A stretch of DNA of 64,000 nt. Origin: Streptomyces rimosus (GTDB taxonomy: Bacteria > Actinomycetota > Actinomycetes > Streptomycetales > Streptomycetaceae). The notes beneath the pieces were generated by a model that saw nothing but the letters and a program-made list of their open reading frames with translations, made no database searches and had not been told where the DNA came from. The DNA is taken from positions 4,402,001-4,466,000 of the forward strand of contig NZ_CP023688.1 in the NCBI RefSeq assembly GCF_008704655.1, given 5' to 3'. Position numbers and translations under genes: made by a program. This document shows positions 58,076 through 63,210 of this stretch, in pieces (the stretch's first letter is position 1; each line of letters opens with the position of its first letter).

Positions 58076-58537
58076 GACGTTTCTCCTCTTACGGGACACG
58101 GCCCAAGTGGTCCGGCACGGGACCGATGGGCGCTGCACGCTTGCTGGGGACGTAAGACGCTGGGACTGCGTAACGCGATCACGGGACGGGACTGGGGACA
58201 GAGCGGGTACGGGCGAACCGAAACCCACCCACCCCGCCCAACTACGCGCTCCACAAGGGCAGTTGGCTGCCGCCCTCGTGGAGTTCACGACGTCGCGGTG
58301 ATCAGACTTGCCCAACGAACCCCCGGCGAACCAGCCCGGAACACCCACTTCCCTCTCAAGCATGAAGAACCCCGGGTAAACCTCGCGCGCCCCCTCCAAA
58401 GCCTCACCGCGCCCACCCGCGCCCCCGGCGCCCCTTCCCCCGATTGCGCCGAAACGTTCCCGCACAATTTCGGCCCCTCCCGTGGTGAATCCCTCGTTCC
58501 CCTTTCCTTACTCGAACGTACATACGAAAATAAATCC
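58076..58537. other. Divergent non-coding gap
   Basis: About 460 bases between the secreted protein and the primase-polymerase gene. The last 50 bases are AT-rich (ACATACGAAAATAAATCC), unlike the surroundings, and probably contain the promoter of the plus-strand gene. No clear operator is visible. Confidence 0.5.
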
Positions 58538-59539
58538 ATGGCCTCTCCCCACTCTCCCGCCATGGACACGACCACCGGAAGCCATCCCTCCACTCCCGTC
58601 GACGGGCCTGCACACCGGTCCGCCGGTGCCTCCATCGACCGCTTCACCCGCCGTAGCCCCCGCCCCGGCCACCCCTACCGCCGCGAAGATCACCACACCA
58701 CCGCCCTCACCCACGCCCTCGTGGCCGCCGGCCGCGGCTACGCGGTCATCCCGCTGACCCGCGCCAAACTCCCCGCCGTGGCCTCCCCGCACCACGCCGA
58801 CCAGGCCACCGCCCCGTGCCGCGGCGCCTGCGGCCAACTCGGACACGGCATCCACGACGCCACCGCCGACCCGCTCGCCGTACGCCGCCTCTTCGCGGCC
58901 GCGCCCTGGGCCACCGCGTACGGCATCGCCTGCGGCGTCCCCCCGTACCACCTCATCGGCATCGACCTGGACACCAAACACGGCGCCGACGGCCTCACCG
59001 CCCTGCGCCTGCTGGCCGAGGAACACCACGTGGCCCTGCCGCCCACCGTCACGGTCCGCACCCCGAGCGGCGGCCACCACCTGTACTTCTCCGGCCCGCC
59101 GTCCCCGCCCGTCCCCAACTCCGCGGGCCGCCTGGCCCCCGGCATCGACATCCGCGGCACCGGCGGCTACCTGGTCGGCCCCGGCTCCCACACATCCCGC
59201 GGCGCCTACACCCTCACCCCCGGCACCCCCCGAACCCCAACCCCCGCCCCACCCGCCTTACTCCACCTCCTGACCCACCTCCCCCACACCACTCACCCCC
59301 ACAACACTCGGCCCCGCCCGACCCCCCACACCCCCTCCACCCCCGCCCCCGCTCTCCTACGCTTCGTCCGCACCGCCCCAAACGGCCAACGAAACGCCCG
59401 CCTCTTCTGGGCCGCCTGCCGCGCCCACGAATCGGGCCTGGGCCAGGAGATGTCCACGGCACTCACCACAGCGGCCCTGCACACGGGGCTGAGCGAGCGG
59501 GAGGCACGGGCGACCATCGCTTCGGCGGGACGGCAGTGA
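58538..59539 (+). CDS. Bifunctional DNA primase/polymerase-like protein
   Basis: A 333-residue protein with an archaeo-eukaryotic primase-type Prim-Pol domain (about 60-240). It has YAVIPLTRAKLPA, the metal motif LIGIDLDTKHGADG (D143, D145), the SGGHHLYF motif with H180, and GIDIRGTGGYLVGPGS. Such proteins start or extend DNA in plasmids and phages and are common as isolated genes in Streptomyces. A Pro/Thr-rich linker precedes a small helical end (RNARLFWAACRAHESGL). ATG 58538 lies just after AT-rich sequence; there is no clear ribosome site. Confidence 0.88.
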   Translation: MASPHSPAMDTTTGSHPSTPVDGPAHRSAGASIDRFTRRSPRPGHPYRREDHHTTALTHALVAAGRGYAVIPLTRAKLPAVASPHHADQATAPCRGACGQLGHGIHDATADPLAVRRLFAAAPWATAYGIACGVPPYHLIGIDLDTKHGADGLTALRLLAEEHHVALPPTVTVRTPSGGHHLYFSGPPSPPVPNSAGRLAPGIDIRGTGGYLVGPGSHTSRGAYTLTPGTPRTPTPAPPALLHLLTHLPHTTHPHNTRPRPTPHTPSTPAPALLRFVRTAPNGQRNARLFWAACRAHESGLGQEMSTALTTAALHTGLSEREARATIASAGRQ

Positions 59540-60027
59540 CGCGATGTCTTCGGAGCTCATCAGGATCTGGGTGGCCGGCTGGGCCGACTCACGCCACGCG
59601 CCCCGGCCGATCGAGCTGCCGTGGGACCTCTACGCCGAGGTGCCTGCCCAACCAGGCGGGCGGGCGGGCGAGCCGTCATGTACTACCGGTTCCCAAAGGT
59701 CCCTCGATACGCGCGGTAGCCACCTCCAGTAACCGCCCCCGCGCCTGGAGCAAGGCACCAGAGGGCCCGGACACCATCACACCGTGCCCCCCCCCAGGGC
59801 CGAGCGATGGACCACGAAGAATCCGGCAACCTGTTGGCCACCGACCTCTGCCCCACGCCCCGGCCCCCTCGGCGGCTACACCCTCGAAACCCGCGACGGT
59901 GTGAGACGCGTGCGTTCTGAAAATGCCAAAGTTCTATGACTTACAGGTGCCTCAGGTCACAAGAGCTGACTTACCATCAACCCACGCTGCACGAACATCA
60001 CGCGCACTGAGTGACCTTGGGGGCATC
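59540..60027. other. Non-coding gap before the HEPN-STAND gene
   Basis: About 490 bases without a supported gene. Composition changes here from very GC-rich to markedly less so beyond about 59,920, which marks the left edge of a probable horizontally acquired segment. Confidence 0.55.
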
Positions 60028-62583
60028 ATGAGCTCGTCCGCAACCCGTCTCACTTGCTTCGCTCTCCTCTCCGCGATTGAGGAGGACTTACGGGCTGCGA
60101 TCCTCGGGGTGTGCGACGCTGCGGACGACGCGCGATCGATTCTGAGCAGCAAGCGATACGAGAAGGTCATCCTGCGGCAGCCCAAAGAGGCCAACGCCTC
60201 CTCGACGAGTGTCGCCTCACTAGTTCAACTCCTCGACTTCGCCGATGCCTACGAAGTGCTGAGCAGGCTCAAGAGCCGCCTCCCAGAGGATCACCAGGCT
60301 ACGGTCAGCCGATTCGCTCCCCATCTGAGCGCGCTTACCCAGGTGCGCAACCGAGTCGCACACACGCGCCCTATGGAGATTGACGACCTGCCAACTGTCC
60401 ACGATGTTGCCAAGGAAATATGCGCATCGTCGAAGTCTCACTGGTCGAATGTCTGTGAAGTTCTACGTAAGCTCGAAGATGATCCATCCTACGTTCTCGG
60501 GCTAACCATCAGCCTGGTCGCCGACCCTGACAATGCCCCTCAACACAACCTCCCTGCCCCCGAATTTGACGAAACGGGATTCTTTGGTCGCCGCAAGGAA
60601 CTGGACCGAATAAAGAAGGTGATAAAAGGCGCCTATCCCGTTGTCTCGGTCCTCGGAGACGGAGGAATAGGAAAGACGTCAATCGCACTCAAGGCCGCTT
60701 ACGAGCTTCTCGACGACCCGAAAGTCGACTTCGACGCCTTCGTGTGGGTAACCGCTAAGGCCACCTCCCTGACAGTGAACGAGATCCAAAGAATAAGCGG
60801 GGCTATCGAGACTTCGCTTGGCCTGTTCACTTCGGCGGCGGAGCAACTGGGAGGCAAAACCGCCGCCAGGGCAAGCGACCCAATCGAAGAAGTCCTCTCC
60901 TATCTGGAACACTTTCGCGTCCTCCTGATCCTGGACAATCTGGAAACCGTTCTAGATCAGAGGCTGCGCGATTTTCTCCTCGACATCCCCACGGGCAGCA
61001 AGGTCATCGTCACAAGCCGGATAGGGCTTGGCATTGAGAACCCTGTAGCACTTTCCCCGCTTTCAGACGACGACTCCACTCGACTTTTGTACACCTTGAC
61101 TCGCGTGCGCGATGTGAGGGCGCTACAAGGGCTGCCATCGACGAACATCTCCAGCATGGTTCGCGCGATGAAGGGACACCCGCTCTACATTCGCTGGTTC
61201 GTTGCCGGCGTACAGGCAGGAAAACGCCCCGAGGAGCTATTCAACGGCAATAAGCTACTGCTCGATTTCTGTATGTCGAACGTATATCAGTACCTCAACG
61301 ACGAGGCGCGTTCCGTACTTCGCTCCATGCAGGTCCTACCCGGCCGAAGAAGCCAGGGTGAGCTGGCCTTCCTGAACAGCTACTCGGCTAGTTCCATACA
61401 ATCCAGCCTGCTGGAGCTGATGAAAACCAACTTCGTGCAGATGCAGGGCGCCTCGGGGGGTGAGACGTCGGTAACCACCTATCGTCTCACCGAATTCGGG
61501 AAACAGTACCTGGACAAGCATCATGCAGTGAAGGCGACAGACAGGACGCAGTTTGAGAGCCGCAGCAACGAGTTGACGGAACTCGGGACGGCTCTACAGG
61601 CGGAAAGTACAGCATCTCCGTACGACCCCAAGACGATCGACATCCAAGGTTCCGGAGACTACAGCGTAGCTCAGATACTACGGAAGGCACTGCGCGAATA
61701 CGATCGCAGTGAATTCGACAAGGCGTTGGCGAGTTGCCGAGAAGCACAAACGCTGGCACCTACCTACCACGAAGCCTGGAGGGCCGAAGCGTTCATTCAT
61801 GTCGGCAGGAAAGATCTCGCCGACGCCCGCGCCGCCTATGAACAAGCTTACGAACTAGCGCCTGATTCAGCCACATTGAACTACTTCTACGGCTCATTCC
61901 TGGTCGATGAATCCGTGGATTACCAACAAGGTCTTGAACTACTACAGAGAGCGGCCGTCCTGGCAGAGGTACCTCCTGCGGTAATCAACCAGATCACTTG
62001 GGCGCACATACAACTGCGCGACTATGCCGCAGCTGTAGTCAGCACATCGCATGCCCTCTCTCTGAAACCCACTAGGGACGACGGATCCGTAGCCGTAACC
62101 ATGGGCGCACGTGCTGCCGTGTACGGGACACAGCAACACCTGGAACACCTGCGCACCGGTGAAGCTGTCGAGACCATCGAAGCGGCTGTGGAAATCGCAG
62201 AATCGGCCAGATTGGAGATATTGCACGGGGAAACTTCCGATCGACTCGTGCAGTTGATCGACCTTGCCGAAGACATCGGCGAGAATTCTGACGAAGAATT
62301 CATGGCGGTAAGCTGCCGAAACTTTGCCGCACGACTCAGGGACCGCCTACGCGCTCTCGACGCCGAACTGCTTACGAGAAGAGTAGGAAATTTGAAAGCA
62401 GTGCGGGACGACAGGAAGTTCGGCTTTGTCCGTTCGTGGGGGAGGGAGTATTTCTTCCACCTCAGTGACCTGCAAGCAGAGTCTGACTGGTCGTACCTGC
62501 TGGAAGGTGTTCCTGTAGCGTTCACACCGGACGAGGAGAACGAACGGGGGCCACGCGCCACCCAGCTTCGTTGGTTGGGTTAG
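60028..62583 (+). CDS. HEPN-STAND NTPase-TPR-cold-shock-domain protein, candidate antiphage defence
   Basis: An 851-residue protein. Residues about 5-150 are an all-helical HEPN (Swt1-like) domain with the RNase motif R107NRVAH112. An NB-ARC-type STAND ATPase follows: P-loop GDGGIGKTSIAL (about 210-221), LLILDNLE (D303), GSKVIVTSR, then a winged-helix part near 430-520. TPR-like helices lie at about 555-660 (FDKALASCREAQTLAPTYHEAWR). The last 65 residues form a cold-shock-like beta-barrel (GNLKAVRDDRKFGFVR, YFFHLSDL, DWSYLLEG, GPRATQLRW). ATG 60028 was chosen for GGGGG upstream; ATG 59923 is possible. Codon use is clearly less GC-biased than that of neighbours, indicating transfer. The architecture suggests a sensor-switch-nuclease protein. 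Confidence 0.85.
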   Translation: MSSSATRLTCFALLSAIEEDLRAAILGVCDAADDARSILSSKRYEKVILRQPKEANASSTSVASLVQLLDFADAYEVLSRLKSRLPEDHQATVSRFAPHLSALTQVRNRVAHTRPMEIDDLPTVHDVAKEICASSKSHWSNVCEVLRKLEDDPSYVLGLTISLVADPDNAPQHNLPAPEFDETGFFGRRKELDRIKKVIKGAYPVVSVLGDGGIGKTSIALKAAYELLDDPKVDFDAFVWVTAKATSLTVNEIQRISGAIETSLGLFTSAAEQLGGKTAARASDPIEEVLSYLEHFRVLLILDNLETVLDQRLRDFLLDIPTGSKVIVTSRIGLGIENPVALSPLSDDDSTRLLYTLTRVRDVRALQGLPSTNISSMVRAMKGHPLYIRWFVAGVQAGKRPEELFNGNKLLLDFCMSNVYQYLNDEARSVLRSMQVLPGRRSQGELAFLNSYSASSIQSSLLELMKTNFVQMQGASGGETSVTTYRLTEFGKQYLDKHHAVKATDRTQFESRSNELTELGTALQAESTASPYDPKTIDIQGSGDYSVAQILRKALREYDRSEFDKALASCREAQTLAPTYHEAWRAEAFIHVGRKDLADARAAYEQAYELAPDSATLNYFYGSFLVDESVDYQQGLELLQRAAVLAEVPPAVINQITWAHIQLRDYAAAVVSTSHALSLKPTRDDGSVAVTMGARAAVYGTQQHLEHLRTGEAVETIEAAVEIAESARLEILHGETSDRLVQLIDLAEDIGENSDEEFMAVSCRNFAARLRDRLRALDAELLTRRVGNLKAVRDDRKFGFVRSWGREYFFHLSDLQAESDWSYLLEGVPVAFTPDEENERGPRATQLRWLG

Positions 62584-63117: not shown

Positions 63118-63124
63118 CTTGGTG

Positions 63125-63210
63125 CGGAGGCTGTGGGATTTGAACCCACGGTGGCGTTGCCGCCACGACAGTTTTCAAGACCATGCCCGGTGAAGCGGCG
63201 CCATGCCTCC
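63125..63210 (-). tRNA. tRNA-Ser (anticodon TGA), somewhat atypical
   Basis: An 86-base class II tRNA. The 5' end is GGAGGCATGG, the anticodon loop CTTGAAA, a long variable arm with GTGGCGGCAACGCCAC follows, and the T arm is GTGGGTTCAAATCCCAC. The seventh acceptor pair is A-A, the anticodon stem has two G-T pairs, and the D arm is hard to fold. Length and terminator favour a real gene, but a degenerate copy is possible. Confidence 0.75.

Follow-up and report, generated by a model that had tools for sequence, protein, structure and literature searches.

The stretch of DNA analysed here (the window: 64,000 nt of Streptomyces rimosus contig NZ_CP023688.1, positions 4,402,001 to 4,466,000) carries near its right-hand end a single gene whose 851-residue product joins a HEPN domain, an NB-ARC nucleotide-binding module of the STAND class of nucleoside triphosphatases (NTPases), a tetratricopeptide repeat (TPR) solenoid and a C-terminal cold-shock domain (CSD). 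Its neighbours are a chromosomal Prim-Pol gene on the left and, on the right, a sequence resembling tRNA-Ser, both outside the system (Table 1). Conservation, profile comparisons and two structure models support the predicted effector-switch-sensor anatomy in this one gene.

As listed, the open reading frame (ORF) spans 59923-62583 and encodes 886 residues. In the alignment, the homologs' start MS[SF]SATRLTC coincides with the ATG at 60028, which is preceded by a GGGGG-type ribosome site, and most of the homolog starts shown are also G-rich upstream; this ATG is therefore the likely start.

Table 1. Features of the locus, in window coordinates
Feature	Coordinates	Strand	Evidence
HEPN-NB-ARC/STAND-TPR-cold-shock-domain protein, 851 aa	60028..62583 (stop codon included)	+	ORF list, Pfam, homolog alignment
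HEPN (Swt1/Abi2-like) domain, residues 1-158	60028..60501	+	model pLDDT 87.3, HEPN/KEN ribonuclease structure matches
Catalytic-type motif R107-N-R-V-A-H112 (Rx4H)	60346..60363	+	invariant in 50/50 aligned homologs
NB-ARC nucleotide-binding core, residues 180-345	60565..61062	+	Pfam NB-ARC E 4.9e-9; conservation
P-loop GDGGIGKT, residues 210-217	60655..60678	+	G210, G212, G213, G215 and K216 invariant in 50/50
Helical/winged-helix part of STAND module, residues 346-500	61063..61527	+	model secondary structure; invariant G383-x-P385
TPR and helical solenoid, residues 542-783	61651..62376	+	TPR_2 E 2.6e-7; model pLDDT mostly >90; VIA rows mainly TPR proteins
C-terminal cold-shock OB-fold, residues 785-849	62380..62574	+	profile match to Csp structures; invariant F800, F809, H811
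Flanking chromosomal Prim-Pol gene, outside the system	58505..59539	+	Pfam Prim-Pol E 2.6e-35
58-bp core shared with intact tRNA-Ser; putative attachment site of right-hand element, outside the system	63124..63181	-	exact copy at G000:C1:4488067-4488124

Domain anatomy

The NB-ARC-type switch and the TPR repeats named in the original prediction both pass their Pfam cut-offs (36.2 bits against 23.5 for NB-ARC), and we take residues 346-500 to be the ARC/winged-helix part of the same module. For the query protein alone, CSD (E 3.3e-4) and HEPN_Swt1 (E 5.6e-3, 17.4 bits against a cut-off of 27.5) stay below theirs. Among five relatives scanned with Pfam, one (P0032) passes the HEPN_Swt1 cut-off with 33.1 bits and one (P0078) the CSD cut-off, these two having come from rows whose precomputed lists already held HEPN_Swt1 and CSD, respectively. 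Of the PADLOC models, CSD_V (1.1e-4) and, weakly, PD-T4-2_B were the only ones to match the query protein at E≤1, and NCBIfam gave it no match above cut-off.

The two end domains were also compared by structure and by family profiles. A model of the HEPN part alone has the helical HEPN fold, and known HEPN/KEN ribonucleases (RNases) fill 8 of the 15 best rows of its comparison with the PDB, with modest Z; together with the invariance of R107-H112, found where the original prediction had placed a HEPN RNase motif, this fits a predicted RNase-type effector. The HEPN profile found no credible relative among PDB sequences (best E 0.053, an unrelated phosphoprotein). At the other end, a search with the CSD profile (A7) hits structures of Csp proteins, led by 2kcm (E 2.2e-9) and including 1csp (2.4e-8), which bears out the predicted cold-shock fold. 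The best 60 of 124 matches of the whole-family profile to PDB sequences include TPR and cold-shock chains and no chain named as HEPN. Foldseek matches of the whole model are STAND switches, namely the STAND-TPR protein PH0952 (6mfv), plant resistosomes (9fp6, 6j5t), CED-4 and human SAMD9 (9zjs, E 4.3e-7). TPR rows dominate the VIA result for the whole model, which is uninformative on the other domains.

Family, distribution and composition

A protein search scored 7,999 candidates and returned 300 homologs at E≤1e-3. Most of the 120 proteins listed, among them the query, are full length; apart from the query itself they are 46-84% identical to it, and all those named by organism are actinobacterial; the layout is nearly fixed, at about 850 residues, in a family that is chiefly actinobacterial. 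All 50 aligned sequences agree not only in the Rx4H motif and the P-loop glycines and lysine (G210-x-G-G-x-G-K216) but also in R114-P-M-E117, D303-N304, T329-S330-R331, G383-x-P385 and, within the CSD, F800, F809 and H811. We take D303-N304, T329-S330-R331 and G383-x-P385 to be STAND motifs, and the CSD aromatics presumably belong to RNP1 and RNP2. Residues 184-345 form the most conserved segment compared, with 56% of positions at least 90% identical, and mean entropy is 1.85 in the TPR part and 2.39 in the linker against 0.80 in the NTPase. HEPN (1.74) and CSD (1.99) are variable too, which qualifies any support drawn from the variable TPR and linker.

Across the listed proteins (query included), R[NDH]xxxHxRP is present in 113 of 120, the P-loop pattern in 119 and a simple RNP1-RNP2 pattern of the CSD in 116, the four misses being variant CSDs and not absent ones. 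The seven proteins without R[NDH]xxxHxRP are annotated without that N-terminal part: one begins inside the NTPase and six begin at M116, just past the motif (P0031, P0071, P0072, P0100, P0107 and P0120). Either the starts at M116 were called wrongly or the HEPN part has been lost more than once; when such a truncation was sought among 392 Streptomyces genomes, all copies found were uninterrupted. Exchange of effector or sensor was also considered and set aside, since searches with the C-terminal and N-terminal regions returned the same architecture, with three weak TPR-type matches and a few short proteins as exceptions.

A tree of 21 rows places the window protein within a fully supported Streptomycetaceae clade. 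More distant relatives lie on plasmids of Rhizobium etli (29% identity) and Planococcus (25%), and both keep RNxVxHxRP. The Planococcus protein has the same domains, its CSD matched at E 1.1e-4; the one from Rhizobium has the same domain order with no Pfam CSD, and its OB-fold tail is suggested by alignment only. A homolog with 53% identity (L011), whose short contig bears the label of an Acidobacteria metagenome-assembled genome, groups inside the actinobacterial rows of the tree, and this acidobacterial placement may reflect transfer or a binning error.

The gene is rare. The source genome, a single 9.36-Mb contig, holds one full-length copy; three other large proteins encoded in it (L002, L003 and L004) match the NB-ARC part only, at E 9.2e-8 to 2.0e-9. 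With the source genome counted each time, the query protein (P0001) finds a match at 1e-150 in 4 of 295 Streptomyces genomes, 4 of 392 (a sample overlapping the 295) match P0031 at 1e-100, and 5 of 394 genomes of the family Streptomycetaceae match at 1e-100, while the only match among 396 genomes of a phylum-wide sample at 1e-60 is the source genome itself; with such limits, no more than two or three candidates were scored in each genome. It is also foreign in composition, as the original prediction had it, with a GC content of 0.570 against 0.708 in the rest of the window, and the homologs are GC-poorer than their flanks at all 16 loci measured of 18 (mean difference 0.131). A phage, plasmid or viral origin was considered and rejected, given no phage match, no relative confirmed in IMG/VR and only distant relatives on plasmids.

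Genomic setting and neighbours

The Prim-Pol gene to the left has a DNA match at E<1e-40 in 30 of 36 same-genus relatives, and in 19 of the 20 intervals fetched from relatives it lies near a tRNA-Ser(TGA), ARAGORN having called no tRNA in the twentieth. The gap between Prim-Pol and tRNA-Ser ranges from 55 bp (G003) and 248 bp (G036) to about 14 kb (G009), with 3,584 bp here, so this interval (L048-L067) resembles an insertion hotspot. The closest empty site, that of G036, aligns to the window up to 59545 and then again from 63123. Ten ORFs from such intervals in six relatives include one of conflict type (an nSTAND1-WD40 protein, in G009) and three without a match. At homologs' loci the setting differs: the Prim-Pol gene is absent from all 18 named ones (tblastn at E≤1e-10; some loci cover 5-8 kb only), hence the gene sits at other places elsewhere.

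The original prediction had the gene next to a tRNA and small unknown genes, and this needs rewording. A tRNA-Ser-like sequence is indeed present (63124-63210), but its 5′ half differs from an intact tRNA-Ser copy located 22,943 bp to the right of the window core, and since the two share 58 identical bp it is best read as an attachment-site copy. Two small downstream ORFs have no Pfam match at E≤1 and may not be genes. Beside the intact copy, a 474-aa ORF (L068:4570-5994) looks integrase-like by eye. An integrated element of about 22.9 kb would thus lie between the two cores, from 63124 to G000:C1:4488124 (window-equivalent 86124), which would leave the HEPN gene outside, on its chromosomal flank. 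We accordingly rejected the idea that the gene is cargo of this element, as it falls outside the two cores. The apparent element also contains, at 4484190, a short segment resembling the Prim-Pol gene.

To examine association with defence islands, an expectation of the original prediction, we took up to 5 kb on either side of 18 homologs, several of whose loci end at contig ends, and used a GC-frame rule to call ORFs of 90 aa or longer; this gave 137 ORFs in two batches (67 and 70). PADLOC families match no more than 11 of the 137 at E≤1e-8, with upper limits of 4 in the first batch and 7 in the second, these counts being bounds drawn from lists of families and not of members; in the second batch, 12 of 18 family names stem from one large ATPase in L020. 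The control was a random draw of 137 of 195 ORFs from 18 stretches at round coordinates, mostly from Streptomyces and not taxon-matched. It gave 30 family names, whose members number 3 at the least and probably 8 or more; among the 25 names shown, mad3 accounts for 3 members, and each of eight further kinds for between one and three. There is, then, no clear excess of known defence genes, in a comparison limited by solitary genes and generic models. In the first batch (A2, L005-L013), Pfam gave an uncontrolled hint in favour of such an association, matching EAD2 in 2 of 67 neighbours and VMAP domains in 1 of 67; both are families of conflict systems in the account of PMC7159879. Two transposase families, with one member each, also occur among these 67. 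No Pfam family recurs in more than two members of either batch at E≤1e-8, which argues against an obligate partner gene.

Predicted function and known relatives

We consider that the protein is probably a single-protein, nucleotide-binding leucine-rich repeat receptor (NLR)-like abortive-infection RNase or conflict switch, and a defence role is a plausible predicted function given the rarity, AT-richness and shifting locations of the gene. At rest, the NB-ARC module would hold the switch in a closed state. An infection cue would be sensed by the TPR solenoid, alone or together with the CSD; this cue could be a protein of the phage, or RNA that is single-stranded or aberrant and is held by the conserved CSD aromatics. 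Nucleotide exchange would then open the STAND core and allow it to oligomerise, N-terminal HEPN domains would pair into a composite RNase site, and cleavage of RNA, most likely tRNA or bulk mRNA, would stop growth and so protect against phage. For the CSD itself, we only slightly favour a sensor of RNA or single-stranded DNA over a part that presents substrate to the HEPN domain.

The same anatomy could serve the host, with CSD and TPR sensing unstructured RNA or translation stress and HEPN trimming RNA, with no phage role. Such a stress or RNA-quality switch would agree with a CSD of canonical Csp type, a fixed architecture and the lack of a clear defence-island signal, but a housekeeping gene is not expected to be AT-rich and confined to about 1% of Streptomyces genomes, nor to lie away from the Prim-Pol setting at the 18 named homolog loci, and we hold it unlikely. 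That the gene is 540 bp from the putative attachment core, in an interval of variable content among relatives, suggests, in place of phage defence, a role against plasmids or integrative elements, or else a remnant of an older tRNA-Ser element that acts as an addiction-like stabiliser. We find this quite doubtful, considering that the gene is outside the two cores of the present element, that the Prim-Pol setting is common to none of the 18 named homolog loci and that no antitoxin-like partner recurs. Least probable is a STAND regulator of transcription or signalling in which HEPN is just a dimerisation module: several homologs bear the name 'LuxR family glucitol operon activator' in one source, and the six of 120 proteins annotated from M116 look as though HEPN were dispensable, but a purely structural module would not be expected to keep the R/H motif in all 50 aligned sequences, and Pfam at E≤1 finds no DNA-binding helix-turn-helix in the query protein. 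The NLR-like RNase switch remains our preferred interpretation.

Among known systems, the AVAST (Avs) STAND proteins follow the same effector-STAND-repeat logic. No PADLOC model for Avs1-5 matched at E≤1, and NCBIfam Avs4 reached E 0.1 with 9.7 bits against a cut-off of 1500. The TIR-STAND-TPR protein of P4-like satellite defence hotspots is likewise a single protein with an N-terminal effector, a central STAND and C-terminal TPR, but its effector is TIR and its description mentions no CSD (PMC9122126). CoCoNuT type IV restriction combines HEPN RNases and CSD-like OB-folds in one system type with a predicted RNA target, though in multi-gene systems built on McrBC-type GTPases (PMC11090510). 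Tha shares a HEPN RNase (RNSIMH motif), activated by phage minor tail proteins, and differs in being described as 301 aa long with no discernible N-terminal domain and no STAND (PMC11087260). Cold-shock proteins are a listed class of retron effectors (type V, Se72), and retron-Kva2 is a precedent for a HEPN tRNase (PMC13405049); around our gene, Pfam matched no reverse transcriptase in the 12 flanking ORFs scanned, one further ORF having been left out and non-coding RNA not searched.

A counterpart in layout is SAMD9/SAMD9L, where a STAND NTPase is followed by TPR and by an OB-fold closest to cold-shock proteins and predicted to bind RNA, and whose family has bacterial members in actinomycetes (PMC5445408). 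The query protein has the same STAND-TPR-OB order. The AlbA_2 and Sir2-like N-terminal domains of SAMD9 have no Pfam match in it at E≤1 and its N-terminus is HEPN, so the resemblance is one of layout only and the protein is not a family member. It is a tentative possibility that we are looking at a bacterial SAMD9 counterpart with an exchanged RNase, a solitary NLR-like receptor whose CSD would directly read foreign or aberrant single-stranded RNA and whose STAND assembly would activate a HEPN tRNase. If so, it would be a one-gene RNA-sensing immune receptor acting outside defence islands, and as such missed by island-based searches. CoCoNuTs, SAMD9 and retron effectors also have a CSD or OB-fold part, which is therefore not unique to the present protein.

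Nor is the system new in kind, contrary to what the original prediction proposed. HEPN-STAND-TPR-S1 proteins and HEPN-STAND proteins with cold-shock-like tails were described by sequence analysis in 2013 by Anantharaman et al. (PMC3710099), and HEPN-effector NLR-like proteins with such a tail have been predicted since then; our protein is therefore a member of a predicted kind. Our full-text searches of openly licensed papers found no published test of a HEPN-STAND protein with a cold-shock-like tail. Like our protein, the published cases combine an N-terminal HEPN with a STAND NTPase and end in an OB-fold of S1 or cold-shock-like type; the tabulated case has TPR as well, and its HEPN is given as 'mostly active'. 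The examples Npun_F6454, MED222_16016, Desac_1927 and a Bacillus cereus protein are likened here by description only. Compared with them, the present family is chiefly actinobacterial and nearly fixed at about 850 aa, and with 300 homologs of one nearly fixed layout it offers a clean single-gene system for asking whether an OB-fold can do the RNA reading in a STAND switch, as may equally be asked of the OB-fold of SAMD9.
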